A stretch of 27,020 nt of DNA from a virus. This document shows, one piece after another, positions 1 through 23,288 of this stretch. Position 1 is the first letter of the stretch; each line of letters begins with the position of its first letter. The notes under the pieces are model-generated. The model saw nothing but the letters and a program-made list of their open reading frames with translations. It had not been told where the DNA came from and did no database searches. The position numbers and the translations under genes were made by a program. The DNA lies in IMG/VR virus record IMGVR_UViG_3300009788_000267, positions 1-27,020 of that record; one strand, written 5' to 3'.

Positions 1-164
1 AGCACCTCAATTTCATAGTCGCAGCGGGTCAATCCACAAGCAATGCAGGTAATCTCTCGATCTTCGGTTCGAATGATGGGGAAGACAGCATAGCCCATAA
101 TCTCCCCAGGCTTCCGATCTTCATCGGGAGGGCGCTCATAAAGATCTTCAGAATACTTTTCCAT
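1..164 (-). CDS. Hypothetical protein, C-terminus cut by window edge
   Basis: The first 54 residues of a gene that runs off the left end are visible. The ATG at 164-162 overlaps the TAA stop of the upstream gene in the form TAATG, which suggests translational coupling. The visible part is charged and contains a CxxC pair followed by a third cysteine (CIACGLTRCDY), which may belong to a small metal-binding site, but the partner ligands are not in the window. The bases before the start (GAGCGATAATG) resemble the initiation region of the next two genes upstream. No family was recognised. Confidence 0.7.
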   Translation of the reverse strand, partial: MEKYSEDLYERPPDEDRKPGEIMGYAVFPIIRTEDREITCIACGLTRCDYEIEV

Positions 165-478
165 TATCGCTCGAAACCGACTCTCTGGGGAGCACCATGT
201 TGCTCCATTCCATTGACAGCGATGGCTGCGATTTTGCGCAGGAATTCCAAGGCATCGACCTCGCAATAATGACGCTTTCCATCCCTATCCCCCGCCAACT
301 TTTTGGGCTCGTTAACCCAGATAGCCCTAGCCTTCGACGCATACTCTTCAATGAGGAGGAGGAATTCCCCCACTTCAAGCGGGTTGGGGGTTTCGGACCC
401 ATCAGGGTTACTCCATAGAGAGTCCTGATAGGCTCTTTCGCTGTCGATTGCTCTGAAAACTTCTTCTCTGTTAGTCAT
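164..478 (-). CDS. Small phage protein, paralogue of the next gene upstream
   Basis: A 104-residue acidic, probably helical protein of unknown function. It shares its layout with the 102-residue product encoded at 495-803: an N-terminal motif of the type AIDxERxYQ, a central segment with GxF....E.Y...AR, and a C-terminal block LxFxRKxxAxxVxxMEQxG followed by RxGxE. Proteins of this general appearance, with a C-terminal MEQHGAP-like motif, are frequent in tailed phages, but I cannot attach a function. The start at 478 is preceded by AGAAAGGGAACGATAATG, giving a GGGA-type ribosome binding site. The stop overlaps the ATG of the following gene. The gap to the upstream paralogue is 16 nt, consistent with a tandem duplication. 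Confidence 0.85.
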   Translation of the reverse strand: MTNREEVFRAIDSERAYQDSLWSNPDGSETPNPLEVGEFLLLIEEYASKARAIWVNEPKKLAGDRDGKRHYCEVDALEFLRKIAAIAVNGMEQHGAPQRVGFER

Positions 479-494
479 TATCGTTCCCTTTCTG

Positions 495-803
495 TCAACT
501 CTCGTAGCCTGAACGTTCGAGAATTCCGTTTTGCTCCATACAAGCGACGCCTAGCGCCGTCACTTTTCGAACGAAATCTAGACTCCCCTCCGCTCCCAAA
601 CTTCTTTGATCTATACTATTGCCTCCGTTTTCTAATATGCTCTCCAAGCGGCGTGCTTCCTGTAAGTAGTGTTCCATGAACACAATGAACGCTCCGGTCT
701 CGTGTTTGCCGCTGGATTCGGCGGTATCCCACTTTTTCTGATACTCTCGCTCGCCATCAATCGCCTTGTATACCTCAGCTCTGCGGTCGTCTTCGTAAGT
801 CAT
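495..803 (-). CDS. Small phage protein, tandem paralogue
   Basis: A 102-residue protein of unknown function, homologous to the one encoded at 164-478 (AIDGEREYQ, then EHYLQEAR, then LDFVRKV and CMEQNG). I chose the ATG at 803 instead of the longer in-frame ATG at 836. The 803 start forms a TAATG overlap with the stop of the upstream glycosyltransferase gene, follows a good GAGGAAA ribosome binding site, and aligns with the start of the paralogue. The bases around both starts are alike (RGGRAACGATAATGACT), so the duplication probably included the translation start. The first 11 residues of the longer reading (MELLRNSEETI) have no counterpart in the paralogue. Confidence 0.85.
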   Translation of the reverse strand: MTYEDDRRAEVYKAIDGEREYQKKWDTAESSGKHETGAFIVFMEHYLQEARRLESILENGGNSIDQRSLGAEGSLDFVRKVTALGVACMEQNGILERSGYES

Positions 804-1939
804 TATCGTTTCCTCGCTATTACGTAAAAGCTCCACAGAGGATCTGGCCGTGAAGTGTACTCAAGAATGTTGAAGTTCAGCTCTTCGCGCAAAAATTGCA
901 CTAGAGTCACTGGTTCGGGGTTCCAGACGTGCTCTTTACCCACCCACGAGCCTGTTTTAGCGTGCCAAGGCTCACATTGAGGATGAGGTAGATACATGAA
1001 CAGAATCCCGTGAGGTCGTATGATGCGATGCCATAGCGTAAGCTCTTGTTTCCACTCCGTTACTTGTTCCAAACAATGAGAACTGAATACTCCGGCGAAC
1101 TGGCCGTCTCTTGCGTTCTCTATGATATTGCGGTTTCCTTTGTCTATAGGAATCGAGTTCATTAGAGGCCATTGACTGCACCCAACATCAACGTATCCGC
1201 TCTTCATGTATTCCTTGGCCTTGCATTTTACGAAGTCAGCAGCGTTTCCTGTGTTTAAGAAGTTGGGGTAGCGCTTCTCAAACCTGACATCGGAGATCTT
1301 GTTCATAACATCATCCCACTCAGGCCTAGCTACAACAACATTGAAAGGCTTCCGTCGCTGCTCTCCTTCCTCAGTCATACCCATGACAACCCGGACGTTC
1401 AAGGCAGCCGCCGCTTGGGTAGCCCAACAATCTGGGCCAACCACAAGAGAAGCAGAACCTAAAATTCTGAGTGCTTTGCGCGTATCATCAAGACTTTTAG
1501 GATTCTCTAGGGTGAGGACTTCCGCACCAGTGCTTTTCAGCCTCTCCGCTATTCTTCCGACTCTAGGCCACCCTACAATAGAATGATGAGTTTGAACGAC
1601 TACTATAGTGTTCGTATCTGCCGGTCTATCTGGCAGAAAAATTTGAGGTGTCTTTCGTGCTAAAACTACTTCAGCAAAGATGGCGAATCTCTCTACTGTT
1701 GGTGCTAGAAGCGTCCAATCATCTGTGATATCCGCATAGTGATCGGCTTGGGGTTTGGGAGTCTCAAACTCGACAATTTCATAGATTAGAGGATGATGCT
1801 CGAAAAACGGGAAAAATTCCTTCTGGGTTCGCAAGGTAAGCTGGCATGGGGCGAACTTGTAATAAAGAGCTTCGAGAGTGGGCTCCGAAAGGATGATATC
1901 ATGGATATTGCCAGATATTGTAACAAGAACTTTTTGCAT
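803..1939 (-). CDS. Glycosyltransferase (GT9-like) fused to a class I methyltransferase-like domain
   Basis: A two-domain protein of about 378 residues. The first ~200 residues look like a GT-B glycosyltransferase of the ADP-heptose transferase (GT9) type: an N-terminal Rossmann-like strand (VLVTISGNIHD), and a second half with GSASLVVGPDCWATQAAAALNV, cited here only as the region at residues 165-185, which is the place of the GT9 nucleotide-sugar-binding loop. Residues ~235-378 resemble a class I SAM-dependent methyltransferase: VDVGCSQWP in the SAM-binding position, FSSHCLEQV in the usual 'SxHxLEH' place, then IIRPHGILFMYLPHP. Two starts are possible. ATG 1951 has no purine-rich leader, whereas ATG 1939 follows GAGTGAAACA, so 1939 is preferred. 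Substrate unknown; DNA base, virion protein or host glycan are all possible. The stop overlaps the next start. Confidence 0.75.
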   Translation of the reverse strand: MQKVLVTISGNIHDIILSEPTLEALYYKFAPCQLTLRTQKEFFPFFEHHPLIYEIVEFETPKPQADHYADITDDWTLLAPTVERFAIFAEVVLARKTPQIFLPDRPADTNTIVVVQTHHSIVGWPRVGRIAERLKSTGAEVLTLENPKSLDDTRKALRILGSASLVVGPDCWATQAAAALNVRVVMGMTEEGEQRRKPFNVVVARPEWDDVMNKISDVRFEKRYPNFLNTGNAADFVKCKAKEYMKSGYVDVGCSQWPLMNSIPIDKGNRNIIENARDGQFAGVFSSHCLEQVTEWKQELTLWHRIIRPHGILFMYLPHPQCEPWHAKTGSWVGKEHVWNPEPVTLVQFLREELNFNILEYTSRPDPLWSFYVIARKR

Positions 1940-1998: not shown

Positions 1999-3861
1999 TT
2001 AATTGATGTCAAGTAGTAATTTCCGTGCTGAGCCGTCCGAACCCATTAGTCTTTCGATGTGGGCTTCCGCATCTTCACCAGAGGTAATCTTGATCAGACA
2101 GCGAGTTTCGGGGTTCATTGCATATTCTCGAACCTCTGAGGGGTTTGCCTCTCCATGCCCTTTCAATCGTACAATAGGAGCAGATTTGCCACTTTTGGGT
2201 AGTGTTTTTCTCACTTCTTGCAACGTATGGCCATAAAAGCGCGTGCTCTTATGAGTAGCTACGAAAAGTGGAGCATCCACGATATAAAGCATCTCGGTAG
2301 AAATGAGCTGTGGCATATACAGTGTGAAAAACGCCAGACAAAGGGCTGCGATGTGTTGCCCATCAGGATCCGAGTCGGGCATCAGTAGTAGTTTTCCGAT
2401 TCTGCATTTAGCTGGTTCGCATAAGTCTCCGGTTTTGGTCCCTATGCAGGTGATGATATCCTGAATCTCTCGGTTGGCGAGGAACTTAAATGCGGATATC
2501 CGGCTAGCATTAGGAATCTTGCCTTTGAGGCCCAGCACTTCCTGATAATAAGCGTTGCGTGCTAATTTGATAGAACCTCCGGCTGATTCTCCCTCACATA
2601 TGAAAAGCTCTCGTTCGTGCGGTTTGCATTTCGGAGCCTCGGCCAATTTTCCCGGCAGTACACCACGCTTACTGTTCTTGTGTACTACCAACTTTCGTAT
2701 AGTGCTACGCTCGGCTTTGAACTTGTCTCTGGCTTTGCTAAGAGCTACTGCCCGAGCAATGATGGTATTCGTCAGATCTCGATTAGCTTGCAAGAAATCA
2801 GTAACAGGCTGAGAAAGTTGACGAGTCACTATTGCCTCCACATCTGTATTGGTCAACTGATCTTTGGTTTGACCTTTGAAATGCGGATTAGTGTGCCTCA
2901 AATGGATGGCTGCGACAACTCCGGCACGGAGATCGGACGAGACTATTTTATCGCTGCTTGTATGCTGTTCCTTGAGCAGTTTACTGATTGTTTTTTGCAG
3001 TCCTTCAAGATGGGTTCCTCCTTCGGGCGTAGGACTGCTGTTCACGAAAGAATATGTCATCTCATTGTCATCATCAGTCCATAAAATGGCGACATCCATC
3101 CCACGAGTCTGCACAAAAAGAGGTCTAGTGTGCAGAGATTTCGCACCTATGTCTTCTGCTGATTGTGCCACAAATTCAGATAGTCCTTTAGAGGACTTAA
3201 AATTTTCTCTGGTATTGTGTTCGTCATCTAGTAAGCATAGACGCAGACCAGGGCACAGATACTTCAGAGTACTAAGCCAGTCTCGTATGATAGCATGATG
3301 TATTGTGGCATTGAAACCACTGAAAGGCCCTTTGCCGTCATAATCAGGCAGAAAGTGAACGATGGTGCCTTTTTTCAAAAGGCGTCCGCCACCGGTGACT
3401 TTGACAATTTTGGAAGTAGCTTTGCCTCTTGAGAATGACTGTTTCCATTCTGTGGATTTGCGGACCGTGTGGACATTGACCCACTCAGAGAGAGCATTGA
3501 CAACAGTAACTCCAACACCGTGAAGACCAGCAGAAACTGAGTAAGCGTTCTGGTCGAACTTACCTCCCGCGCCAAGGATAGTGAAGATGGTTTCTAGTGT
3601 GGATTTGCGAGTCTTGGGGTGCTTCTCAACGGGAATGCCTCGTCCGTTATCCTGCACACTGATGGATCCATCACCGTAATGAGTGACCATAATTTCCGTG
3701 ACATGGCCTGCCATATACTCATCAATGGCGTTATCCAGAACTTCTTTGACAAGCTGGTGCAGCCCATCCGAACCCACATTTTGGATGTACATGCCGGGCC
3801 GTTCGCGAACATGAGCGGCGTCCTTGAGGACTCTGATAGACTTGGCGTTGTATTCAACCAT
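1999..3861 (-). CDS. Type IIA DNA topoisomerase, GyrB/ParE-like ATPase subunit
   Basis: A complete 620-residue B subunit, close to ParE length and without the long insertion of enterobacterial GyrB. The GHKL ATPase domain has EVLDNAIDE (40-48), DNGRGIP (71-77) and GLHGVGV (112-118); the transducer has QTKDQL (331-336), whose lysine contacts ATP in the family. The TOPRIM domain has EGESAGG (423-429) and DSDPDG (496-501), preserving the Mg-binding acidic residues, followed by KGHGEANPSEV near 567. It would hydrolyse ATP to drive strand passage together with an A subunit, to relax or supercoil phage DNA during replication. No A subunit is encoded in this window. The ATG at 3861 overlaps the upstream TAA (TAATG). 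A 47-nt gap follows the stop. Confidence 0.95.
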   Translation of the reverse strand: MVEYNAKSIRVLKDAAHVRERPGMYIQNVGSDGLHQLVKEVLDNAIDEYMAGHVTEIMVTHYGDGSISVQDNGRGIPVEKHPKTRKSTLETIFTILGAGGKFDQNAYSVSAGLHGVGVTVVNALSEWVNVHTVRKSTEWKQSFSRGKATSKIVKVTGGGRLLKKGTIVHFLPDYDGKGPFSGFNATIHHAIIRDWLSTLKYLCPGLRLCLLDDEHNTRENFKSSKGLSEFVAQSAEDIGAKSLHTRPLFVQTRGMDVAILWTDDDNEMTYSFVNSSPTPEGGTHLEGLQKTISKLLKEQHTSSDKIVSSDLRAGVVAAIHLRHTNPHFKGQTKDQLTNTDVEAIVTRQLSQPVTDFLQANRDLTNTIIARAVALSKARDKFKAERSTIRKLVVHKNSKRGVLPGKLAEAPKCKPHERELFICEGESAGGSIKLARNAYYQEVLGLKGKIPNASRISAFKFLANREIQDIITCIGTKTGDLCEPAKCRIGKLLLMPDSDPDGQHIAALCLAFFTLYMPQLISTEMLYIVDAPLFVATHKSTRFYGHTLQEVRKTLPKSGKSAPIVRLKGHGEANPSEVREYAMNPETRCLIKITSGEDAEAHIERLMGSDGSARKLLLDIN

Positions 3862-4232
3862 TAATGGAAAGTCATCCTTTTCATGCTCCGCATTTTGTAC
3901 ATGAACTTATTTGGATCGTCTCTAAATAACCTGACGTGAGCGATCAAAATGTAGACCTCGTTGGGCTCAAGGTCTCCGGTGTTGGTAGGTGCGTTTTCCG
4001 GGCGAGTGAGCAGGGTAAGCATCCATTCATCGCCCTCATTGAAACACATTTCACAGAGCCCGCTCATCACGTCCCGATATTGCGCATATTCAACATGAAG
4101 CAGCACAGGTCCTTCATCTTCAGCGTTCGGTAAATGCACTTTCGCCAAGGCAGATTGGGGGTCGGGATCTTCCCGCAAATCATACAAGAAATAGCGCATT
4201 TCTTGCTCTTCGGGCGCGAAACTGAAGTTCAT
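3861..4232 (-). CDS. Hypothetical protein
   Basis: A 123-residue acidic protein of unknown function. The start is taken at 4232 (MNFSFAPEEQ), where ATG overlaps the TGA of the DUF1508-type gene as TGATG; an upstream in-frame ATG at 4256 would lie inside that gene. The protein has a central SGLCEMCFNEGDEWMLTLL segment with a single CxxC and a basic C-terminus (FMYKMRSMKRMTFH). Its stop overlaps the topoisomerase start as TAATG, so the two may be translationally coupled. No signal peptide or membrane segment is evident. Confidence 0.8.
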   Translation of the reverse strand: MNFSFAPEEQEMRYFLYDLREDPDPQSALAKVHLPNAEDEGPVLLHVEYAQYRDVMSGLCEMCFNEGDEWMLTLLTRPENAPTNTGDLEPNEVYILIAHVRLFRDDPNKFMYKMRSMKRMTFH

Positions 4233-4429
4233 CAGTCTTTCTCGACCTTCTTGCATTCCGCGAAATCGAAGGCGCGCACCACGGTATTAATCGCTCGATT
4301 GACGTTTGCTTCGCTCACGTAGCCTTCGCTACTTGTAGCGAGGATTTCGCCATTTACAGCACGCAGACGCCATCTCCATTCCCCGGCGCTGTCTTCGTAC
4401 CTCTCAATTACAGGATTTCTATCTGACAT
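4232..4429 (-). CDS. DUF1508 (YegP-like) small protein
   Basis: A 65-residue protein that fits one DUF1508 unit: ERYEDSAGEWRWRLRAVNG followed by EILATSSEGYVSEANVNRAI. The family pattern is [D/G]xxWRWRLxAxNGxxIAxSxEGYxxxAxxxxxI. The biochemical role of the family is not established. ATG 4429 is favoured over the in-frame ATG at 4453 because a strong AGGAGG site lies five bases before it, and that site would be inside the coding sequence of the longer version. It sits between thyX and an uncharacterised gene whose start overlaps its stop. Confidence 0.85.
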   Translation of the reverse strand: MSDRNPVIERYEDSAGEWRWRLRAVNGEILATSSEGYVSEANVNRAINTVVRAFDFAECKKVEKD

Positions 4430-4433
4430 GTTT

Positions 4434-4441
4434 CCCTCCTC
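4434..4441 (-). promoter_or_regulatory. Strong ribosome binding site that sets the DUF1508 gene start
   Basis: On the minus strand this reads GAGGAGGG, five bases before ATG 4429. It is the best match to the anti-Shine-Dalgarno sequence in the left half of the window. It supports the shorter 65-residue product over the 73-residue reading from 4453. Confidence 0.7.
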
Positions 4442-4468
4442 TGGATACTCCATCAGGAAACGAAGCTC

Positions 4469-5371
4469 TCAGTGCTCCTGATTCACTATTCCAAGATGCA
4501 ACAGTTTTTCCCAGCATTCATCGCGTTCTCGACACTTTTTTAGTTTAATCCAAGACGGGTCTTGTGCTCTCTCGAAATGTTGCTGAGAGTTTCCGGTTGG
4601 ATCAGTTTGAAGCAATTCTATCATGCGCCGGAGCACCCCAATTTCGAGGCGCGTTAACTGAAGAGCCTCTAGACGGTAATCTACAAACGCTTCCCACGCT
4701 TGCGGGAATAGCTTCGCCACGATTTCGTTACCTGCTAAGGTTGCGTATTCCCGGATCTCCTGTTGAGCATGCTCATTCATGCGCAGTTTTAGGAAATGGA
4801 AAAGGTTGTGCAGATCTATTTTCCAGTATGCCTCAGTGTAATTTGAGAGCGGTAGATCCTTGCGAGCCTGTTCACGTGCGACACCCCATTCTAATCTCTC
4901 CTCGTACATCTTACGAGTCATTGCATGATTTTCGCTTTCTCTGGCAGTCAAGCGATCTCCATAGTTTGGGTTCAGATTCCCAGAACTCCCTTGCTTGTTA
5001 CCTTCGCTTTGCAGACGCCACTCTCCAGGGAGCGTGGTGGCGCACTCATCTACAGCCACCGAATATCGGGTAGAATATTCATTCACCGATGCAGTTCTGT
5101 GTCGTATCCATTGTCGCCACGTGTCCATCGGCACCCGAACACGAAACTTTAACTCTGCCATCTCGAAAGGTGTCGTATGATGGTGCCTCATTAAAAATCG
5201 AATTAGAGTCCGATCGTCGGAGGTGTGCTGAGTGCCCTCACCGTAACATACACGAGCAGCTTCTACAATGGAATAGTCCTCTCCCATCCAATCCACTAAA
5301 CAGATATTGCCGCCGCTTCCAACTTGGAATTTTTTCCATCTTAGGGCATTTCCCGCTTCTTGATTGCTCAT
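4469..5371 (-). CDS. thyX: Flavin-dependent thymidylate synthase ThyX
   Basis: A 300-residue ThyX, which makes dTMP from dUMP using methylene-tetrahydrofolate, FAD and NADPH. The diagnostic RHRx7S motif is present as RHRTASVNEYS (90-100), followed by TRYS. Other family landmarks are HHTTPFE (64-70), the AREQARKDLP block near 165-174, and LHNLFHFLKLRMNEHAQQEIREYA, starting near 187, which carries the C-terminal active-site arginine helix. It is longer than many ThyX proteins because of an extra C-terminal ~60 residues. ATG 5371 follows TGGAGAAACA and overlaps the TGA of the upstream gene as ATGA. Together with the polymerase and deoxyribosyltransferase it forms a nucleotide-supply block; phages use ThyX to sustain dTTP for replication. 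Confidence 0.96.
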   Translation of the reverse strand: MSNQEAGNALRWKKFQVGSGGNICLVDWMGEDYSIVEAARVCYGEGTQHTSDDRTLIRFLMRHHHTTPFEMAELKFRVRVPMDTWRQWIRHRTASVNEYSTRYSVAVDECATTLPGEWRLQSEGNKQGSSGNLNPNYGDRLTARESENHAMTRKMYEERLEWGVAREQARKDLPLSNYTEAYWKIDLHNLFHFLKLRMNEHAQQEIREYATLAGNEIVAKLFPQAWEAFVDYRLEALQLTRLEIGVLRRMIELLQTDPTGNSQQHFERAQDPSWIKLKKCRERDECWEKLLHLGIVNQEH

Positions 5372-5856
5372 TGTTTCTCCACGTAGTCAGTAAGAAAAGA
5401 ATTGACGATGTTAATGGCCGCATTTAACGATTCTACTCGATAGCCGGTAGCTTCGCGAATCATAGAGTGTTCATGCAAATTGCCTTCGTTCTCTATTATC
5501 AGAACCACCGGTTTGTTGAAGGCTTTCGCCCAAGCTATCTCCATGACAGTTCCGATAGAGACTATCTTAGCGCCTTTGAGATAGGCCACCAACATATCAC
5601 AATGCATGACATCGTAATAGTCTCGGGTCGTAATAGCTCTCGAAGTACTGAGAGGACGCCGCATGCCGTTCTGCCCATCATCGTAAGCATCTTTAATACA
5701 AACTTCGCTATCCAAATATTCTTTGCACCGCAGAGGAGATATCCCAACGATTCCGTCATTTAACTTGGTCTTGAAGTGCTCACGCCAGCTCGTAGCGCTA
5801 CCAAAACTCTCTCCTGTGATAGGACCTGCCAAATAGCATGTGATCGCTCTACTCAT
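5368..5856 (-). CDS. Nucleoside 2-deoxyribosyltransferase-like enzyme
   Basis: A 162-residue protein of the nucleoside 2-deoxyribosyltransferase fold. Visible landmarks are YLAGPITG (8-15), an aspartate in HCDMLVAYL (85-93), and GTVMEIAWAKAFNKPVV (102-118), in which E106 is in the place of the catalytic glutamate. Family members exchange or hydrolyse the base of (deoxy)nucleosides or nucleotides. The aspartate-GT motif is changed to SIGT here, so activity may differ from classical enzymes; a nucleotide hydrolase is an alternative. ATG 5856 has a strong AAGGAGTCTTAAATG leader. It lies 15 nt after the polymerase gene and overlaps thyX by 4 nt, which points to a role in the same deoxynucleotide pathway. 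Confidence 0.85.
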   Translation of the reverse strand: MSRAITCYLAGPITGESFGSATSWREHFKTKLNDGIVGISPLRCKEYLDSEVCIKDAYDDGQNGMRRPLSTSRAITTRDYYDVMHCDMLVAYLKGAKIVSIGTVMEIAWAKAFNKPVVLIIENEGNLHEHSMIREATGYRVESLNAAINIVNSFLTDYVEKQ

Positions 5857-5871
5857 TTAAGACTCCTTTAT

Positions 5872-8800
5872 TCATGCGGCTTCTTTCATCCTCTCGGCCT
5901 CTTTCTTGCGAAGGCGATTCATCATATAATCCAGGTGGAGCTGGGTTCCGTCCCAGGGCTCTATTTCTCCCCACTTCAAGCCGATTTCGAAATCGACTTC
6001 GAGAGGTATGTTGAATTGTACTCCCCATATCTCTTTCATGCGTTCCATAAGTTTTGCGGTGAAGAAAGGCTGAATAGCTGCCATAGCCTCTGGAACCTCT
6101 TCAATTGGAACCTGAATCAGACAAGAGTCATGAACAACGTCCTCAATCTGCCAGCAATCCTTATCGGGATGGATATGCCATTTACCCGTTTCTATAAGCC
6201 ACTCAGAAAGCATAGCAGCTCCAAGGAATGCTCCATCCGACGAGATGCCTTGAATAGGACTGTTGCGGGCGATGCGCTTGGCGCGGGCGATTTCCCCCTT
6301 GTCCGCCAGACCTAGCATGAAGGTGATCAGGCGGCGTCTGCGACCTATGGGACTTTCTACATATCCATTCTGCTCCGCAAAATCCTCTATGTCGAAGAAC
6401 CATTGTTCGGCTGCATCGAACTGTTTGAAGAAGTCGGCAATTCGGCCTTGGACTACCCCGATATCTGCCACATTCAATTGCTGCGCGATGGCCTTGGCTC
6501 CGCGTCCGAACATGGAGCCGAATACGATTTGCTTGGTGTCATTTCGCTGGATCTTGGTGACTTTCTCGATATCGACCTGATACATTTCGCTGGCAGTGGA
6601 TTTATGTAGATCACCTGCAATTCCTGCGAATTTTTTGGCCTGACACAGCTTCTCAAACTCGGGATCTTTGGTAATAGCCCTCTCAGCCATCTTGAGAGCT
6701 TTGTGGGCGTATTTACCGCCCTCTCGAAGCTCCTCTATATCGGCATCCAGCAAGGCCACACCGGCCTCTAACACAGGATATCTCAGTTTGGGGTGTTTGG
6801 CTGCGTATTTGTTGCTCAGTTCAAGATACGTCATCCGGGCCTTTTTGCCCATATGAAAAGCCTTAGCCAACGAAGGACATTGAGCTAGGATACCCCACCA
6901 ACGGATCTCTGAAGTCATGAAGTCGAGCTGAACCAGGGCTGTCCCGGGCTCGGCCGCATACATGTTCTTGATTTCTTTCTTGGCCCAATTATCGGCTCTG
7001 GGGACTTGTTGAAGGTTGGGCTCGGTACAAGAGGATCGTCCGGTGTCTGTCGTGGTCACCCAGAAACTCGGGCGCACACGAGAGTCCTTACTGCCCTCAG
7101 CATCCATTTTAGGATCGAGGAAATCAAAAATAGATTGAACGTAGGAAGTCGCCAACTTCTTGAGGCCTGAATGCTCCTTGAGCATACCCACTTCTTCACG
7201 GATCTCGTAATACTTTTGTTGGAAATGCTTATCTAGTTTGCCTGTGGGTACTTCTTTCCCTTTACTGGGCCCGTACAGTATCTTCCTTTTGCTCTTACCG
7301 AAGTCAATAGGTTCCAGTCCCATCACGTCAAAGAACAGGGTACGTTTGTGGTCGTCTTTGTTAATATCGAAGACCCAATCTCCTTCAGAAGCGAAGATGG
7401 GCTTCATCTTGCCTCCCAGTTCTCTCTTTCGCATAACTGCGTTTGTCTTCCTGGCGGGCTTACTGGTTTTCCACCACTTCTTGATTTGAGCCATGCGGAT
7501 TGTGATAGGGCTTTTCTTCGCATTACTCAAGAGACGTAACTGATCAATATCCACCCACAAGCCGTTGGAGCCCATGATGGCGTTCATTCGCACAACAGGC
7601 TCAAACCAATGCTCGCTCAGTTTGAGTAATTGTTCTTTGTAATCTTCCCGTTTTGCTCGCTCAAGGATGTTGAAGAACAGGCGATAGGTATACACAACAT
7701 CACTACATCCGTACTTAGCCAACCTTCCTATTTCGACTTCTAGCATCCGTCCTTGATTACGCATGCGCTCGATTTCTGGGTCCTCTCCGTACTTCTCGAC
7801 ATTCAAATAGTCTCGAATTAGAGTTTCCAGTCTATAAGGCTTGTCCATTGATTTGCCACGGTTCTCGTCCTGGCAATACGCCATCGTCATAGTATCCATG
7901 AGAGGGCGATTGAATTTGGTGATACCCAATCCAAAATTGAATATCATTCTACAATCGAATTCCATGTTGTGGAACACCCAGTACCGGAATGGAGGATTTG
8001 GATGTGTGAAGAGCTTTATGAGCGCAGCATCGAGACGTTTGTACTCTTCTATAGTGAAGCCAGATTGCGGGTGGTGGTATGGGATAGCAACTGCGTTCTT
8101 GCCATCGTGGCAGAACTGGAACATACCTAGGATGTTGTCGTAGCGTTTGTTTAGACCTTTGGTTTCAGTGTCGCACGAGATGACCTTGATGTTCGGATCC
8201 GTTAGCAAGAAGTCTACATATTTCTCGATTTCATCAATGTCCTCAAGGAACTTATACTTCCACGGTTTGGACCAGCGATTTGCTTTCTTTGCAAGCTTCT
8301 CGGATCCCAATATGAGCTGCAAGTCATTCTTCCACTGCTCATACAAATTCTGTCTACGTAGGATATATGCTGGATGAAAAGTGGCAAATACCTTTCCGAT
8401 GGAATCGTGCTCAAAGTGCTGGCCGCGAGCCACGGTGATCTTAGGAGCATCTGGAAACAGTGCTTTGAGAGCTGTACCTCCCAATACCACTATCTTGGTA
8501 GGTTTGAGTTTTTTGATGTCCGCTCTAAGATGTTTGCGGCAAGCTTTGGATGCAGCGGGATCCGGCGGAACGGTCTCTGCGGCCTCATTGCGTGGCCAGT
8601 AACGCGCGATGTTGGTGTACGCGACAGACGCCCCACGTTTGTTCAGTTTGCGGAGAGTGTCCCGGAGTAGCTTTCCAGATCGGCCAATGAAAGGCAAACC
8701 ATCAGAGGCTTCGTTTTCACCTGGAGCCTCTCCGATAAAAAGGATAATCTCTTTTGGATTCCTGGTGCCCACGCGGATTTGGGTGGGTACAAGATGACAT

Positions 8801-8928
8801 TTCCTGAAAACAGGGCATTGGGATTGCTCACACGTGAACTCAAGAACGCCCGATTCCCAAGTGTCTTGGGAGGACTCGTCCTCAAACTCTTCGTCTTCGA
8901 TTTTGGGTGAAGTTTTAGCGCTCGGCAT
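5872..8928 (-). CDS. UDG-like domain fused to 3'-5' exonuclease and family A DNA polymerase
   Basis: A 1018-residue replicative polymerase. Residues ~30-210 form a family-4 uracil-DNA-glycosylase-like domain: GEAPGENE (66-73), GLPFIGRSGKLL (77-88) and FHPAYILRR (184-192). The exonuclease follows with CDTETKG (252-258), FHNMEFD (319-325) and YGCSD (406-410), so ExoI-III acidic residues are intact. The polymerase has motif A LVQLDFMTSEIR (D669, E674), motif B R795...K799...F803G, and motif C VVHDSCL (H933, D934). SPO1 DNA polymerase is known to carry the same kind of N-terminal domain. Oddities: the third canonical Fe-S cysteine of the UDG is Tyr110, motif B has Phe807 where Tyr is usual, motif C has Ser935 where Glu is usual, and there are ~65 extra residues between motifs A and B. 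ATG 8928 is the only start before an in-frame stop; its ribosome binding site is weak. Confidence 0.96.
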   Translation of the reverse strand: MPSAKTSPKIEDEEFEDESSQDTWESGVLEFTCEQSQCPVFRKCHLVPTQIRVGTRNPKEIILFIGEAPGENEASDGLPFIGRSGKLLRDTLRKLNKRGASVAYTNIARYWPRNEAAETVPPDPAASKACRKHLRADIKKLKPTKIVVLGGTALKALFPDAPKITVARGQHFEHDSIGKVFATFHPAYILRRQNLYEQWKNDLQLILGSEKLAKKANRWSKPWKYKFLEDIDEIEKYVDFLLTDPNIKVISCDTETKGLNKRYDNILGMFQFCHDGKNAVAIPYHHPQSGFTIEEYKRLDAALIKLFTHPNPPFRYWVFHNMEFDCRMIFNFGLGITKFNRPLMDTMTMAYCQDENRGKSMDKPYRLETLIRDYLNVEKYGEDPEIERMRNQGRMLEVEIGRLAKYGCSDVVYTYRLFFNILERAKREDYKEQLLKLSEHWFEPVVRMNAIMGSNGLWVDIDQLRLLSNAKKSPITIRMAQIKKWWKTSKPARKTNAVMRKRELGGKMKPIFASEGDWVFDINKDDHKRTLFFDVMGLEPIDFGKSKRKILYGPSKGKEVPTGKLDKHFQQKYYEIREEVGMLKEHSGLKKLATSYVQSIFDFLDPKMDAEGSKDSRVRPSFWVTTTDTGRSSCTEPNLQQVPRADNWAKKEIKNMYAAEPGTALVQLDFMTSEIRWWGILAQCPSLAKAFHMGKKARMTYLELSNKYAAKHPKLRYPVLEAGVALLDADIEELREGGKYAHKALKMAERAITKDPEFEKLCQAKKFAGIAGDLHKSTASEMYQVDIEKVTKIQRNDTKQIVFGSMFGRGAKAIAQQLNVADIGVVQGRIADFFKQFDAAEQWFFDIEDFAEQNGYVESPIGRRRRLITFMLGLADKGEIARAKRIARNSPIQGISSDGAFLGAAMLSEWLIETGKWHIHPDKDCWQIEDVVHDSCLIQVPIEEVPEAMAAIQPFFTAKLMERMKEIWGVQFNIPLEVDFEIGLKWGEIEPWDGTQLHLDYMMNRLRKKEAERMKEAA

Positions 8929-17991: not shown

Positions 17992-20571
17992 CTAGTCCCT
18001 GATGCAGACGATTGCGTTGATGTATGACGGACGCCATGTACCGTCGTTTGATACAGCGTGCTCGTGAGTAGTTCCACCACCTGTCGAGTCCGTCGCACCA
18101 CCAAGATTTCTCATCAAGCCACTAAAACCTGAAGCGTCGCCAGTGGCGATTGCCACACCGTCAATATTGTGCGTATGCGCAGGCATTTCCGAGATTGTCA
18201 GAGCATGAGGGTCTGCTTGGAATCCAGTGATTGTCCAACTACCGCCGGTTACGCCGCCCAATGCTTCGGAATCAACGACCCGTACAACTGCATCATTCAC
18301 AGCTACATCTAAAGTCCAGCCAGTAGGCACAGAATCCTGCATGAACAGCATTTTGGAGCCTGCTGGAATGTCCGCATGGTCCGCTGATGCGAATTGCCAT
18401 GTAGATCCATCCCAATATTCGATACGTGGAGGGGTAGTATCGTCACGAAGGAAGATCATACCAGAATCAGGACTTAGAAGATCTCTGGTAGCTTCTGAGC
18501 CAAACTTGAACTTATGGTATCCACTCCCAGAACTGTGTTCTTCTTCCCATTGTGCTGGAATAGGCACTCCGTTAGCATTGACGAGCATTGTAGTATCGTC
18601 AATACCGATACCCATGTACCAATCGTTTTCTGTAGTGACTAGGACACCTGCAAAAGCATCAGCACCAGCATACAAACGTACACCAGACACAAAAGGCGTA
18701 CCTACCAGAGCTGTATACTTGCCGTTCTGGATGACGTTGTTCGAGGTCCCTTTTATTCCAAGAGGGAGTCGGCTGGGATCATCACTATCGGCTATTTCAA
18801 ACAGGGTGCCGCTCCACGCGATCGGCGTACCCGGTTGGATTGCTGGATTGAAAAGCGCCTCTGGGAACGTGACCGGAGGGACGGTCTCGCCATTTGGCTC
18901 GATCGCAATTTGGTTCATGTTCACCAGTAATTGAGTGGATGAAATTGCCCGTCCAATAAACCACTCGTTGGAACTGTTAGTAAGGCTGCCGGGGTTGGCT
19001 TTGTCGGCGTACAAAAAATCTACAGAGAAGAGGTTGGAGTTGGCTGTGTACAACCCCTCCATGATTAGGTTGTTGTAATTACCTCTAATACCAACAGGGA
19101 ATAGGTCTCCATTGGGGTCGGCATTTACAAATTTCGAGGTTAGAGTGTTGAAGGCGACAACAGCGCCTTCAGCTACCGATCCTTCCCAGATAGTAGGATC
19201 GTTAAATTGTGCATTTGGGGTTCCAAGCAGAAGTCGCAGAATTCTAGTGTCTAGCTGGCCTCCCTTGGGACCGCGATTCATAAGAAGATGTGGTAGTAGA
19301 GTACCGAGGGAAGTCCGTTTGCCGTAAGCAACCCTAACATCAGAATCTACGGGGTTGTCGAGAATCAGATATAGGCTGAGAGTCGGATCTGTGAAGAACC
19401 CCAAATCATCGACGGCACCTGAAGTTTGAGGATTCAGTTCATTCCCCGAAGAGCCAAGTCCAGGATCTCCAGTTTCTACAGCAGTGATTCTGACTGCTTG
19501 AAAATCTCCGTTGACGAATTCTACATCCTCTTCACTTTCTGCGCTGTAGAGATTGAACCATTGCTGAACAGTCCCTAGGAGGGCTTCCGAATCTGCAGGG
19601 GTTCCTACATAGTATGGTCCGTCCTGAGCCGGGAGTTCGATTTCCTGTGTTGAAGAAGAGATTGTGACGGCTAGTTCTGTAGGAGCAGCAAAAACTTTGG
19701 AGGAAGAGACCCATCGATTGGAATCGCTGGGGGGAGAATCCTCCAGCGAAGTTGCCGGAGATGGAACGTAGTTGCCTGCATTAGCATTCGCTTCGTCTTC
19801 AGTCAGAATTTTATCATCTGATTCTGTGACAAATCGGTTGGAGTTGTTAGGAGTACCAGCAGAACCTGCTACTGCTTCTGCCTGCAAGTCTGTTAAGTGG
19901 ATCTCATCGGAGAGAATATTTTGGCGATGCTGATTTAGCAGCTCTAGAACATCTGCTGCGTTGGTGATATCGATCCACGCAACGCCATTCCATGCAAAAA
20001 TCTTGGGTTGATCGCCGCTTCCATCAGTGACTATATAGAAATCGCCTGCACGATTTTGATTTGCTCCTGTGCTCGGGAGATCTATCTCGGCGCTTAAAAG
20101 TCCACGGAATTCTAGATAACCCAGAGGATCAACAATATCTGATTCGAAAATTTCAATCATCTGTGCCGTGGTAGCTGTAGAACCACCGGGCACGTTCACG
20201 ACGCCAAACACAATAAGATTTGGGTTGTCGGCTCCCTGCTGCCCTGCAGGACCATCCAGGAGGAATTCGGGTTCTGTGAGGCTCTCAATAGAGAGGATAG
20301 AGTCGGAGTTAGAAACGTATTCTTGTCGGACGACAATGTAGTTTTTGAAACCTGCTGTCACATCGAGACGGGTTGTTTCTGAGTCCTCGCGAACGAACAT
20401 GCCGTCCGACCCAGCGGTGGCGAACGGGGCAAGATCAATCTTCAAAACTCCAGGTACAGCAGTAATCTGGCCTCCAGAGAAGAATCCCTTGCTGAATAGA
20501 CCCTGGAATCGATCGTTGATGTCCTGAGTGGAATCAGGGTTTCGGAATTTTAATAGTGCTCTACGAGGCAT
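17992..20571 (-). CDS. Tail fibre protein with tail-collar-type C-terminus
   Basis: An 859-residue fibre, paralogue of the 905-residue fibre directly upstream. Residues 1-~150 are an adaptor-like region (NPDSTQDINDR, SKGFFSGG, GVVNVPGGS). Residues 174-202 (RAGDFYIVTDGSG...WNGVAWI) are a fibre beta unit. Two SNR(F/W)V motifs lie at 244-248 and 284-288. Two ~100-residue tandem repeats occupy ~455-560 and ~571-672. The C-terminus (735-859) is of the phage tail-collar type: IPAGSKMLF...PTGWTL, MPAHTH and INAIVCIRD. It probably trimerises and recognises the host with this tip. ATG 20571 overlaps the upstream TAA as TAATG after AGGACC. Confidence 0.93.
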   Translation of the reverse strand: MPRRALLKFRNPDSTQDINDRFQGLFSKGFFSGGQITAVPGVLKIDLAPFATAGSDGMFVREDSETTRLDVTAGFKNYIVVRQEYVSNSDSILSIESLTEPEFLLDGPAGQQGADNPNLIVFGVVNVPGGSTATTAQMIEIFESDIVDPLGYLEFRGLLSAEIDLPSTGANQNRAGDFYIVTDGSGDQPKIFAWNGVAWIDITNAADVLELLNQHRQNILSDEIHLTDLQAEAVAGSAGTPNNSNRFVTESDDKILTEDEANANAGNYVPSPATSLEDSPPSDSNRWVSSSKVFAAPTELAVTISSSTQEIELPAQDGPYYVGTPADSEALLGTVQQWFNLYSAESEEDVEFVNGDFQAVRITAVETGDPGLGSSGNELNPQTSGAVDDLGFFTDPTLSLYLILDNPVDSDVRVAYGKRTSLGTLLPHLLMNRGPKGGQLDTRILRLLLGTPNAQFNDPTIWEGSVAEGAVVAFNTLTSKFVNADPNGDLFPVGIRGNYNNLIMEGLYTANSNLFSVDFLYADKANPGSLTNSSNEWFIGRAISSTQLLVNMNQIAIEPNGETVPPVTFPEALFNPAIQPGTPIAWSGTLFEIADSDDPSRLPLGIKGTSNNVIQNGKYTALVGTPFVSGVRLYAGADAFAGVLVTTENDWYMGIGIDDTTMLVNANGVPIPAQWEEEHSSGSGYHKFKFGSEATRDLLSPDSGMIFLRDDTTPPRIEYWDGSTWQFASADHADIPAGSKMLFMQDSVPTGWTLDVAVNDAVVRVVDSEALGGVTGGSWTITGFQADPHALTISEMPAHTHNIDGVAIATGDASGFSGLMRNLGGATDSTGGGTTHEHAVSNDGTWRPSYINAIVCIRD
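18556..18861 (-). repeat. Second ~100-residue repeat of the 859-residue fibre
   Basis: Encodes residues ~571-672. It shares with the first copy the order GTPIAW, LPLGIKGTSNNVIQNGKY, RLYAG, then TTENDWYMGIGI and TTMLVNANG. Confidence 0.75.
18892..19209 (-). repeat. First ~100-residue repeat of the 859-residue fibre
   Basis: Encodes residues ~455-560 with GAVVAF, FPVGIRGNYNNLIMEGLY, FLYADK, then NSSNEWFIGRAISSTQLLVN. It corresponds position by position to the second copy and to the two copies in the neighbouring fibre. Confidence 0.75.
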
Positions 20572-23288
20572 TAGTTAGGTCCTAGATCGAGTACGAGTAG
20601 ATGTCTGGCTGTGGCTGTAGCAGAGGGATCTGTTTCATAGGCTTGTAAAGTGATGGTATGCGCTCCAGGGGAGAGCGTAGTCTGGTATCCTTGAAGGGGA
20701 AATGTAGATTCTCGGGGGGCGGTATAAACTTGAGCGGAGCAAGTCACGCCAAACGGTGCGGCGAAGGCAACTGTGTCAATCGTAAATCGATAGTCTGCTC
20801 TTGCAGTACCGCCTGAGGACTCTATTCCCAAAATTGCAAAGCACAGGACTGACGAATTTCCGCTGCGCCCCGTGAAGTCGAAAGCAACGGATAGAACATT
20901 GGTCCACGATGCGTCAAGAGCTATGGGGGTGCTGCCATCATCAGCATCAACAAGAATCTGGTTGATCAAGCCAGATAGTGAATCAGTTCCACCGGCTTCG
21001 TGACGTAGGGCGTGAGTGAATACGTTGAACGTATCTCCAGCGTCATCATCGAGGATACCTGTGGGCAGAATCAGATTTCCCCCAACCTCAAGAGAACTGG
21101 TGATCTCTAGAGGACCCGAGAACTGGCTGGCTTCCACCCAAGTGTTTGCAGCTCCGTTCGTGCAGTAGAAAACCTGACCTGTGTCAGTGGCAAACAGTGT
21201 CATACCTGTAGAGGAGGCTAGGCTGTTTGAAGTGGCAATTCCTGCATCTGCTGCTACGCCCACAAAAGTACGCGCTGACCCCTCCGAGTGAGTACCTGTT
21301 GTATCATCGTGCTCGATAGCAAAGATGCTTCGTGCTGTCTCCCACATCGGAGAAGCAGTAACGTTCACAAGCAATTCATTGCTGGAAACAGCGTGACCTA
21401 CGAAATAGTCATTTTGGCCAGTTTGTAGCTGTCCGTCAACAGTGGTGGAAGCGTAGAATCTTGTTCCTGGTGTGTAAGGAGAACCGCTAGTGGGTTGGAA
21501 TTTACCGACCTGGAGGATGTTGTTAGAGTTTCCACGGAGTCCATCAGGAGTAGGTGTGGCAGGATTAGAGTCATCCCAACGGACGAAGAGGCTTCCATCA
21601 AACGCTGCTACCTCGCCCGGCGAGAGAGATCCATCAAACAGGCCAACAGGGAACGCTGTACCTGGAACGAAAGCTGAGGGAGAAATGGCGAATCCGTTCA
21701 TATTCACCAATAGCTGCGTGGTGTCAAACATTGTACCGATGAATCTATCGTTGGGCGTGGTGGTCAACCCACCCGGTGTAGAGCTACTAGCGTAGACTTC
21801 ATCTCCTGCCGAGAAACCTGGGGCGGAGGTGAACTCGTAGAGACCTTCCATGATGAGATTATTGGTATTGCCTCGAATTCCGACAGGATACAGTGAAGAG
21901 GCGAGATTGTGCTTGGCGAACTTACCAAGACCGACACTAAAAGCTACTACATCACCGGGGCTGGTTCCCGAGTCCCAAGCTGAGTCGTCAAATTGTCCAT
22001 TCACGCTGCTTTCTAGGATCTGGCGTACTCGCGCATCCACTTGCCCGAACTGAGGTCCCCGTAGAAGAAAAGTTTCAGGTACAATGTCGCCAAGTAGGGT
22101 ACGCTTACCATAGCTAATCGTGAAGTCCACATCCGCTGGGTTGCTCACTCCCACAAATAGGGAAGCCCCGGAGAAGAATCCTAACGCATCAGTTTGAGGA
22201 TTCGCGGCCGGAGACAATTCATTGGTTAGGCTAGCTTCCGTGAAGATGCCGGTTATCCGTACGGGCTGGAACTCACTATTCAGAAGTTCTTGGTCGTCAT
22301 CTTCTTGAGAAGAATCTCGTCCATAGATATTGAAGAATTTCTGTGCCGTGCCGATTGTTCCTGCACCCACGAAATATGGACCATTTGCGTCTGTCAGCTC
22401 TATTGAGGAAGTGCCAACAAAATCAATTACAGCAGGAGCAGCAAAGATCTTAGAGGAGTTGATGTATCGATTCGAATCACTGGGCGCGAACTCGGACAGA
22501 ATTGTCGGATCAGCTTGCAAAGCATCATTTTCATTTTGGCTGGGGATCCTGGGGTCAAGACTCGTAACGTATCGATTCGAGTCACTAGGTGTTCCGACTG
22601 TCCCAAAGAGAGCATCAGCTTGCAAGTCAGTAACATGAATCTTATCCACATCTAGATTGTCTCTGTGAGTATCCAGCAGAGAAATCATAGTCTGAGCTTG
22701 TGTTGTGTTCACCCACTCCAAACCGTTCCAGGTCCAGATTTCTGGGAAGCCCCCGGATCCATCTGTGATGATATAGAAATCGCCAGCTCGGTTGCTATTG
22801 GTTGTGATCAGAGGCAACAGGCCTGCGTTATCCAAAACCCCACGGAACGCAAGACGGCCGACTGGATCTATTACGTCTCTTTCGAAAAATTCAATGTGAG
22901 ATTGGAGAACTTCAGTAGCTAGCGCGGGAACATCTACAACGGCAAATGTAATCAGATATTCCTGCTCAGGGTCTCCAAGATACTCCGCCCCAGTAAGAGA
23001 TTCTACAGAGACAATGGGATCGGTATTGGCTACATATCGCTGCCGAACTACAATGTAGTTACGTACGCCAGCACTGACAGAAAGGACATTGTTTTCATCA
23101 TCTTCCCGAACGAACATGCCATCCGGGCCCAGCGAAGCAAACGGAGTTAGGCGAACCGTAAGAGTGCTGGAAATAGCTTCTACGTCGCCGCCTGAAAATA
23201 CGCCCTTGTTGAACAGCCCGCGAGTGCGGTCGTTAATGTCTTGCGTACTGTCGGGATTTTGAAATCTTAGAAGGGTGCGTAGTGTCAC
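20571..23288 (-). CDS. Tail fibre protein with distal beta-sandwich, paralogue of next gene
   Basis: A 905-residue fibre. Residues 1-~650 match the plan of the 859-residue fibre: LLRFQNPDSTQDINDRTRG, FNKGVFSGG, RAGDFYIITDGSG, two SDSNRY motifs (236-241, 271-276) and two ~100-residue repeats (433-538, 550-647). After that the proteins differ. Here come a fibre motif TDTGQVFYCTNGAANTWVEA near 701, HALRHEAGGTDSL (759-771), a motif widespread in phage fibres, and a beta sandwich to the end (LSPGAHTITLQAYE). The start codon is GTG at 23288, preceded by AAAAGGACGATTCG; this reading aligns with the paralogue's ATG start. The stop overlaps the next start. Confidence 0.93.
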   Translation of the reverse strand: MTLRTLLRFQNPDSTQDINDRTRGLFNKGVFSGGDVEAISSTLTVRLTPFASLGPDGMFVREDDENNVLSVSAGVRNYIVVRQRYVANTDPIVSVESLTGAEYLGDPEQEYLITFAVVDVPALATEVLQSHIEFFERDVIDPVGRLAFRGVLDNAGLLPLITTNSNRAGDFYIITDGSGGFPEIWTWNGLEWVNTTQAQTMISLLDTHRDNLDVDKIHVTDLQADALFGTVGTPSDSNRYVTSLDPRIPSQNENDALQADPTILSEFAPSDSNRYINSSKIFAAPAVIDFVGTSSIELTDANGPYFVGAGTIGTAQKFFNIYGRDSSQEDDDQELLNSEFQPVRITGIFTEASLTNELSPAANPQTDALGFFSGASLFVGVSNPADVDFTISYGKRTLLGDIVPETFLLRGPQFGQVDARVRQILESSVNGQFDDSAWDSGTSPGDVVAFSVGLGKFAKHNLASSLYPVGIRGNTNNLIMEGLYEFTSAPGFSAGDEVYASSSTPGGLTTTPNDRFIGTMFDTTQLLVNMNGFAISPSAFVPGTAFPVGLFDGSLSPGEVAAFDGSLFVRWDDSNPATPTPDGLRGNSNNILQVGKFQPTSGSPYTPGTRFYASTTVDGQLQTGQNDYFVGHAVSSNELLVNVTASPMWETARSIFAIEHDDTTGTHSEGSARTFVGVAADAGIATSNSLASSTGMTLFATDTGQVFYCTNGAANTWVEASQFSGPLEITSSLEVGGNLILPTGILDDDAGDTFNVFTHALRHEAGGTDSLSGLINQILVDADDGSTPIALDASWTNVLSVAFDFTGRSGNSSVLCFAILGIESSGGTARADYRFTIDTVAFAAPFGVTCSAQVYTAPRESTFPLQGYQTTLSPGAHTITLQAYETDPSATATARHLLVLDLGPN
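21348..21641 (-). repeat. Second ~100-residue repeat of the 905-residue fibre
   Basis: Encodes residues ~550-647: GEVAAFDGSLF, PDGLRGNSNNILQVGKF, RFYAST, then GQNDYFVGHAVSSNELLVN. Same order of motifs as the other three copies. Confidence 0.75.
21675..21992 (-). repeat. First ~100-residue repeat of the 905-residue fibre
   Basis: Encodes residues ~433-538: GDVVAF, YPVGIRGNTNNLIMEGLYE, EVYASS, then TPNDRFIGTMFDTTQLLVNMNG. It is closest to the first copy in the 859-residue fibre (VGIRGN.NNLIMEGLY). Confidence 0.75.
22464..22484 (-). repeat. Near-identical 21-bp direct repeat, copy 1
   Basis: Plus strand GTATCGATTCGAATCACTGG and one further base. It differs at two of 21 positions from the copy at 22569-22589 and encodes the second SDSNRY motif of the 905-residue fibre. 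Confidence 0.7.
22569..22589 (-). repeat. Near-identical 21-bp direct repeat, copy 2
   Basis: Plus strand GTATCGATTCGAGTCACTAG and one further base, 105 bases (35 codons) from copy 1. It encodes the first SDSNRY motif of the same fibre. Confidence 0.7.

Follow-up and report, generated by a model that had tools for sequence, protein, structure and literature searches.

Comparison of the phage sequence analyzed here with its syntenic relatives supports a conserved, compact nucleotide-metabolism unit, which is composed of the genes for a UDG-headed family A DNA polymerase (UDG-PolA), a protein of the nucleoside 2'-deoxyribosyltransferase (NDT) superfamily and the thymidylate synthase ThyX. We consider it fairly probable that these genes are an operon for making ordinary thymine DNA, together with an N-glycosidase that removes some 2'-deoxynucleoside 5'-monophosphate (dNMP). 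The locus resembles a normal operon for DNA precursors more than an exotic-DNA system, and the middle enzyme is probably mislabelled as a deoxyribosyltransferase. The analyzed stretch (the window) is the entire IMG/VR record IMGVR_UViG_3300009788_000267 of 27,020 bases, and it clearly covers only part of a longer phage genome.

The three genes follow one another on the minus strand in head-to-tail orientation, in the transcription order UDG-PolA, NDT-superfamily gene and ThyX, and their adjacency with a 15-nt gap and a 4-nt overlap, as claimed in the original prediction, was borne out (Table 1). All Pfam assignments were above the cut-off: DNA_pol_A (4.9e-49), UDG (6.4e-23) and 3'-5' exonuclease (9.7e-15) in the single polymerase protein, PF05014 (1.7e-11) in the middle protein and Thy1 (5.6e-48) in ThyX. 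In addition to the ribosome-binding site in the spacer, a Shine-Dalgarno-like GTGGAG is located ahead of ThyX, and the overlapping stop and start codons are likely to cause translational coupling. Elsewhere in the window, a GyrB/ParE-like topoisomerase subunit is encoded at 1999-3861 (its GyrA partner is absent from the window, and a homologue was not found in the two syntenic relatives), two large paralogs (859 and 905 aa) are encoded side by side at 17992-23288 in the tail-gene region, a duplication that both relatives have too, and a 382-aa protein with a methyltransferase-like C-terminal part (803-1951) is matched in both relatives by a close copy as well as by additional, more distant ones.

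Table 1. Features of the three-gene locus and of other small genes in the window
Feature	Position	Strand	Basis
Two similar small genes (164-478, 495-836; 'ER.YQD...W' proteins)	164..836	-	tblastn, ORFs
131-aa protein; in L007 and L010 too, downstream of ThyX	3861..4256	-	tblastn
DUF1508 protein, 73 aa, next gene downstream of ThyX; in L007 too downstream of ThyX	4232..4453	-	Pfam, tblastn
ThyX, FAD-dependent thymidylate synthase, 300 aa, signature RHRTASVNEYSTRYS	4469..5371	-	Pfam, NCBIfam TIGR02170, 72% identity to L010 copy
4-nt overlap (ATGA) between the end of the NDT gene and the start of ThyX	5368..5371	-	sequence
162-aa member of the NDT superfamily, predicted to be a 2'-deoxynucleoside 5'-monophosphate N-glycosidase (Y8, D82, S100, E106)	5368..5856	-	PF05014, BlsM/MilB PDB matches, AlphaFold, residue conservation
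15-nt spacer between polymerase and NDT genes, AAAGGAG ribosome-binding site ahead of NDT gene	5857..5871	-	sequence
Family A DNA polymerase, 1018 aa	5872..8928	-	Pfam, PDB search, alignments

A scan with the window polymerase gave L007, on a 184-kb contig, whose polymerase is 61% identical over almost the full length, and a separate scan gave L010, on a 266-kb contig, as the second syntenic relative; an alignment-based scan with the polymerase returned only these two. In both relatives the tail genes come in the same order as in the window, and so do polymerase, NDT-superfamily gene and ThyX; because both keep an NDT-superfamily gene between the polymerase and ThyX, this order is not due to chance. 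The window NDT protein itself showed no tblastn match to the gene at this place in L007 or L010. The L007 gene has a weak match to PF05014 (E 3.5e-5, below the curated cut-off), aligns by profile (E 9e-7) and gave a structural model of moderate confidence (pLDDT 80) with the NDT-superfamily fold, and in both relatives Gly occupies the position of the phosphate Ser of the window protein. Since the gene at this place matches the superfamily by profile and fold, and not the window protein by tblastn, what is kept is the superfamily, not an ortholog; the proteins belong to different subfamilies, which need not catalyze the same reaction. At these loci we also observed that an intein carrying HNH/NUMOD4 domains splits the RHRTA/SVNEYS signature of ThyX in L007 (L007:11754-13553; 599-aa ORF, Pfam intein E 7e-12), and that the alternative NDT-superfamily gene is in frame with an upstream HTH/LAGLIDADG homing endonuclease-like segment in L010 (7206-8549) and L011 (5772-7028).

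The closest PDB sequence matches of the window NDT protein were BlsM and MilB/BcmB, which are CMP or hydroxymethyl-CMP N-glycosidases. In a fold search with its AlphaFold model (pLDDT 94.4), MilB occupied ranks 1-3 and DNPH1 was in the top ten, with TM-scores of only about 0.6. The ORF picking missed 28 of the 80 NDT loci, and the residue count was therefore redone on 44 in-frame matches. Y8, D82 and E106 were invariant in all 44 aligned family members, and position 100 was Ser in 43 and Thr in one, with Ser in 51 of the 53 sequences of a second alignment and Asp in neither. Position 100 corresponds to the 5'-hydroxyl-binding Asp of classical NDTs, such as the Lactobacillus enzyme. Position 14, six residues past the first catalytic aromatic and thus the place of MilB Arg23, was T (24), S (18) or A (2) among the 44, and never Arg or Lys. 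The Asp-18-Ser-6-Glu spacing is the same as that of D80/S98/E104 in human DNPH1, and its S-6-E part the same as that of MilB S97/E103. Human DNPH1 uses Y24, D80 and E104 and has S98 at the phosphate, while MilB has S97 and F17, the F17Y change of which shifts the preference to deoxy substrates (PMC10603095); MilB Arg23 reads the hydroxymethyl group (PMC4081090). As in DNPH1/Rcl-like dNMP N-glycosidases, the window protein combines an NDT-superfamily fold containing the Tyr, Asp and Glu residues with Ser, not Asp, at the 5' pocket. From the residues, their spacing, the fold matches and the lack of Arg at the MilB Arg23 place, we predict that the protein is more likely a dNMP N-glycosidase than a deoxyribosyltransferase, and that it would be devoid of MilB-type hydroxymethyl recognition. 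The term 'deoxyribosyltransferase' used in the original prediction is only a family name; Y8, D82, S100 and E106 point to a nucleotide N-glycosidase.

Single-sequence scans gave few relatives of the NDT protein, whereas an alignment-based scan found them in 197 viral stretches, from which 80 loci were used for the neighbourhood analysis. Since 197 viral stretches contrast with only six matches, obtained with a narrower pattern than in the viral scan, among 84,980 prokaryote genomes, the family looks essentially viral and largely phage-specific; its best PHROG match is an unknown-function family. In the 16 kb fetched around the 80 loci, before dereplication, a tblastn panel detected dNMP kinase at 26, dCMP deaminase at 15 and ThyX at four; clusters of recurrent neighbours contained apparently spurious ORFs and were set aside, and all neighbour counts are from the panel. 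A dNTP gene was near 16 of 53 dereplicated locus groups compared with one of 58 viral loci taken at random (Fisher p = 2.4e-5), where the random loci were somewhat shorter on average and the panel queries were partly taken from NDT neighbourhoods. One locus (L080) unites the NDT gene, ThyX and, adjoining a dNMP kinase, a homologue of the small window genes at 164-836 (tblastn). Another (L006) carries a tandem pair of NDT-like genes (7992-8450 and 8447-8902) near a PolA gene.

The polymerase consists of a family-4-like UDG (about residues 40-200), a 3'-5' exonuclease (234-421) and a polymerase domain (616-990). The best matches of the UDG in the PDB search were Thermotoga family-4 UDG chains (E about 1e-23), and it keeps the family 4 motif residues E67, N106 and H185 (motifs GEAPGxxE, TN and HP), which we take to be the catalytic positions. 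With regard to the four-Cys Fe-S site of family 4, four cysteines (C33, C38, C44 and C130) are kept in the window, L007 and L010, with a spacing different from that of family 4 and with the KCRPP cysteine missing. The matches, motif residues and cysteines would agree with uracil exclusion, in which uracil that was misincorporated or arose by deamination would be excised at the fork by an active UDG head, and the dUMP/dUTP pool would be kept low by ThyX and the NDT protein. The dUTPase search proposed in the original prediction, run for two types, detected none in the relatives (the second type gave a weak signal in a single control only), which is also in line with this explanation, as is the slow hydrolysis of dUMP by DNPH1 (PMC10483697). 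We nevertheless regard it as unlikely, because the two closest relatives, with a polymerase still 61% identical, have S or E in place of N106 and D in place of H185, because the cysteine spacing is unlike family 4, and because the destruction of dUMP would starve ThyX of its substrate. Because these Asn and His residues are gone in the relatives, uracil excision is, judging from these sequences, not a conserved function in this lineage. The UDG core, 50-53% identical between the window and the relatives compared with about 69% in the polymerase domain, is among the fastest-diverging parts of the protein. UDG-like sequences related to the window head were found in 65 phage records, in most cases on polymerases. 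Many unrelated phages have a polymerase with such a head, and the UDG domains of the SPO1 type and of PaBG are degraded at the same motifs in the alignment, so that the analogy with SPO1 drawn in the original prediction is weak. With the site residues lost in close relatives, a UDG head on a phage polymerase is a poor sign of modified thymine.

The window ThyX scored 162.5 bits against TIGR02170 (cut-off 87.9), and its RHRxxSxNExSxR signature is present as RHRTASVNEYSTR. The original prediction had also suggested a search for dCMP deaminase and dUMP hydroxymethylase. The former was present in both relatives together with a canonical ThyX, which is the ordinary route from dUMP to dTMP. For the latter, PF00303 (ThyA-type thymidylate synthase/dUMP hydroxymethylase) was absent from G001 and G002, the two long relatives, with control genomes positive, and on this result a hydroxymethyluracil or modified-thymine module was rejected. 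A Z-genome was likewise rejected, as PurZ (PF00709) was not found in G001, G002 and seven other records. Searches for the hypermodification families PF18724 and PF18723 and for Tet/JBP (PF12851) found none but were positive in no control genome, and a search for TGT was negative but likewise so in a phage carrying 7-deazaguanine genes, so that these results have little weight; because of such poor controls, only the PF00303 and PurZ negatives count. Among the relatives of the 27-kb fragment we thus found no evidence of a modified base. What stands of the proposed base-identity module is the conserved, compact nucleotide-metabolism unit, while its link to hydroxymethyluracil or an unusual base is not supported, given that PF00303 and PurZ were not detected in the relatives. 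G002 has a class II RNR, and its N6/N4 and Dam-like DNA methylase families make ordinary DNA methylation possible; we also noted in it (L017-L018, L020-L021, L024-L029) an Acb1-like gene, as well as families of the NAPRTase/NAMPT type, cytidylyltransferase-like families and PRPP synthetase, which may together serve to rebuild NAD.

The supply of an unusual deoxynucleotide, in which the NDT protein would take deoxyribose 5-phosphate off a normal dNMP and attach it to a non-canonical base and the UDG-headed polymerase would handle the resulting DNA, has a precedent in DmtZ, a phage NDT-family enzyme that hydrolyses dAMP and also makes dZMP (2-aminoadenine) (PMC12884076). Moreover, genes annotated as thymidylate synthase and 'pyrimidine hmase' lie close by in one UDG-Pol phage (MW202455), and 7-deazaguanine genes are present in a UDG-Pol phage of Brevundimonas. 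We still judge this supply very improbable, since, besides the PurZ and PF00303 results, Ser100 and Asp82 match DNPH1 and not DmtZ (Asn77; phosphate contacts Val11, Gln13, Val98 and Gly99), the MilB-type Arg for hydroxymethyl pyrimidines is replaced by T, S or A in all 44 sequences, and the presence of a canonical ThyX and of dCMP deaminase implies that dTMP is made in the ordinary way. Plain nucleoside salvage, with the NDT protein as a classical nucleoside 2'-deoxyribosyltransferase that swaps the bases of deoxynucleosides, would fit the PF05014 score and the true deoxyribosyltransferase at rank 4 of the fold search (Desulfotalea 2'-deoxyribosyltransferase), but is just as improbable, because a Ser as in nucleotide hydrolases replaces the classical Asp, which was never seen in 44 or 53 sequences, and the dNMP kinase near 26 of the 80 loci puts the protein at the monophosphate level.

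According to our preferred explanation, the polymerase, NDT and ThyX genes would be co-transcribed as a replication and precursor unit. ThyX would convert dUMP, which in the relatives would come from the phage dCMP deaminase, to dTMP, and UDG-PolA would copy the phage DNA. The UDG head would probably serve mainly to contact or sense DNA, and excision by it would be dispensable, even if this activity possibly persists in the window phage. The DNPH1/MilB-like NDT protein would hydrolyse some dNMP to the base and deoxyribose 5-phosphate by way of a covalent intermediate on Glu106; Tyr8 would select the 2'-deoxy form and Ser100 would bind the 5'-phosphate. The NDT protein may thereby remove a dNMP that is unwanted or modified, or tune the pool, upstream of dNMP kinase. 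That the whole family is a class of dNMP N-glycosidases specific to phages, which would sanitise the nucleotide pool by breaking down dNMPs that are modified or come from the host (such as methylated dNMPs released from degraded host DNA) before phage dNMP kinase recycles them into phage DNA, is a tentative and rather doubtful extension. A phage family labelled 'deoxyribosyltransferase' or 'unknown' bears the signature of dNMP-destroying enzymes, and if this is confirmed, phage nucleotide metabolism would include a degradative step that possibly serves sanitisation; the precedents we found for it are human DNPH1 and DmtZ of Z-phages. What is new is a mostly phage-borne variant within the NDT superfamily.

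Among known systems, the mammalian dNMP N-hydrolase DNPH1 (Rcl) resembles the window NDT protein in the fold, the places of Tyr, Asp, Ser and Glu, the D-18-S-6-E spacing and the deoxy-type Tyr, but the identity is only about 16%, T, S or A replaces Arg at the R30/R23 position, and DNPH1 is not a phage protein. MilB/BcmB/BlsM, the best PDB sequence and fold matches, share the S.GT..EI.WA motif and the phosphate Ser; they differ in having the ribose-type Phe instead of Tyr and, in MilB, Arg23, and they occur in antibiotic clusters, whereas the NDT protein is found in phages near dNTP genes. The nearest functional precedent in phages is DmtZ of the PurZ0 phages Ghobes and Wayne, which is likewise a phage NDT-family protein near other dNTP enzymes and acts on a dNMP, the predicted type of substrate of the NDT protein; DmtZ differs in Asn77, in its phosphate pocket and in its occurrence with PurZ, which was not found in the relatives of the window. 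The window polymerase shares the UDG-like N-terminus, exonuclease and family A polymerase with other UDG-PolA polymerases (SPO1-type, PaBG and phiLo; PDB 9qhs), and its UDG has the canonical residues in contrast to the degraded SPO1-type and PaBG domains; hydroxymethyluracil genes were not found in its relatives. The window ThyX agrees with known ThyX proteins in family, signature and a score above the curated cut-off, with no notable difference.
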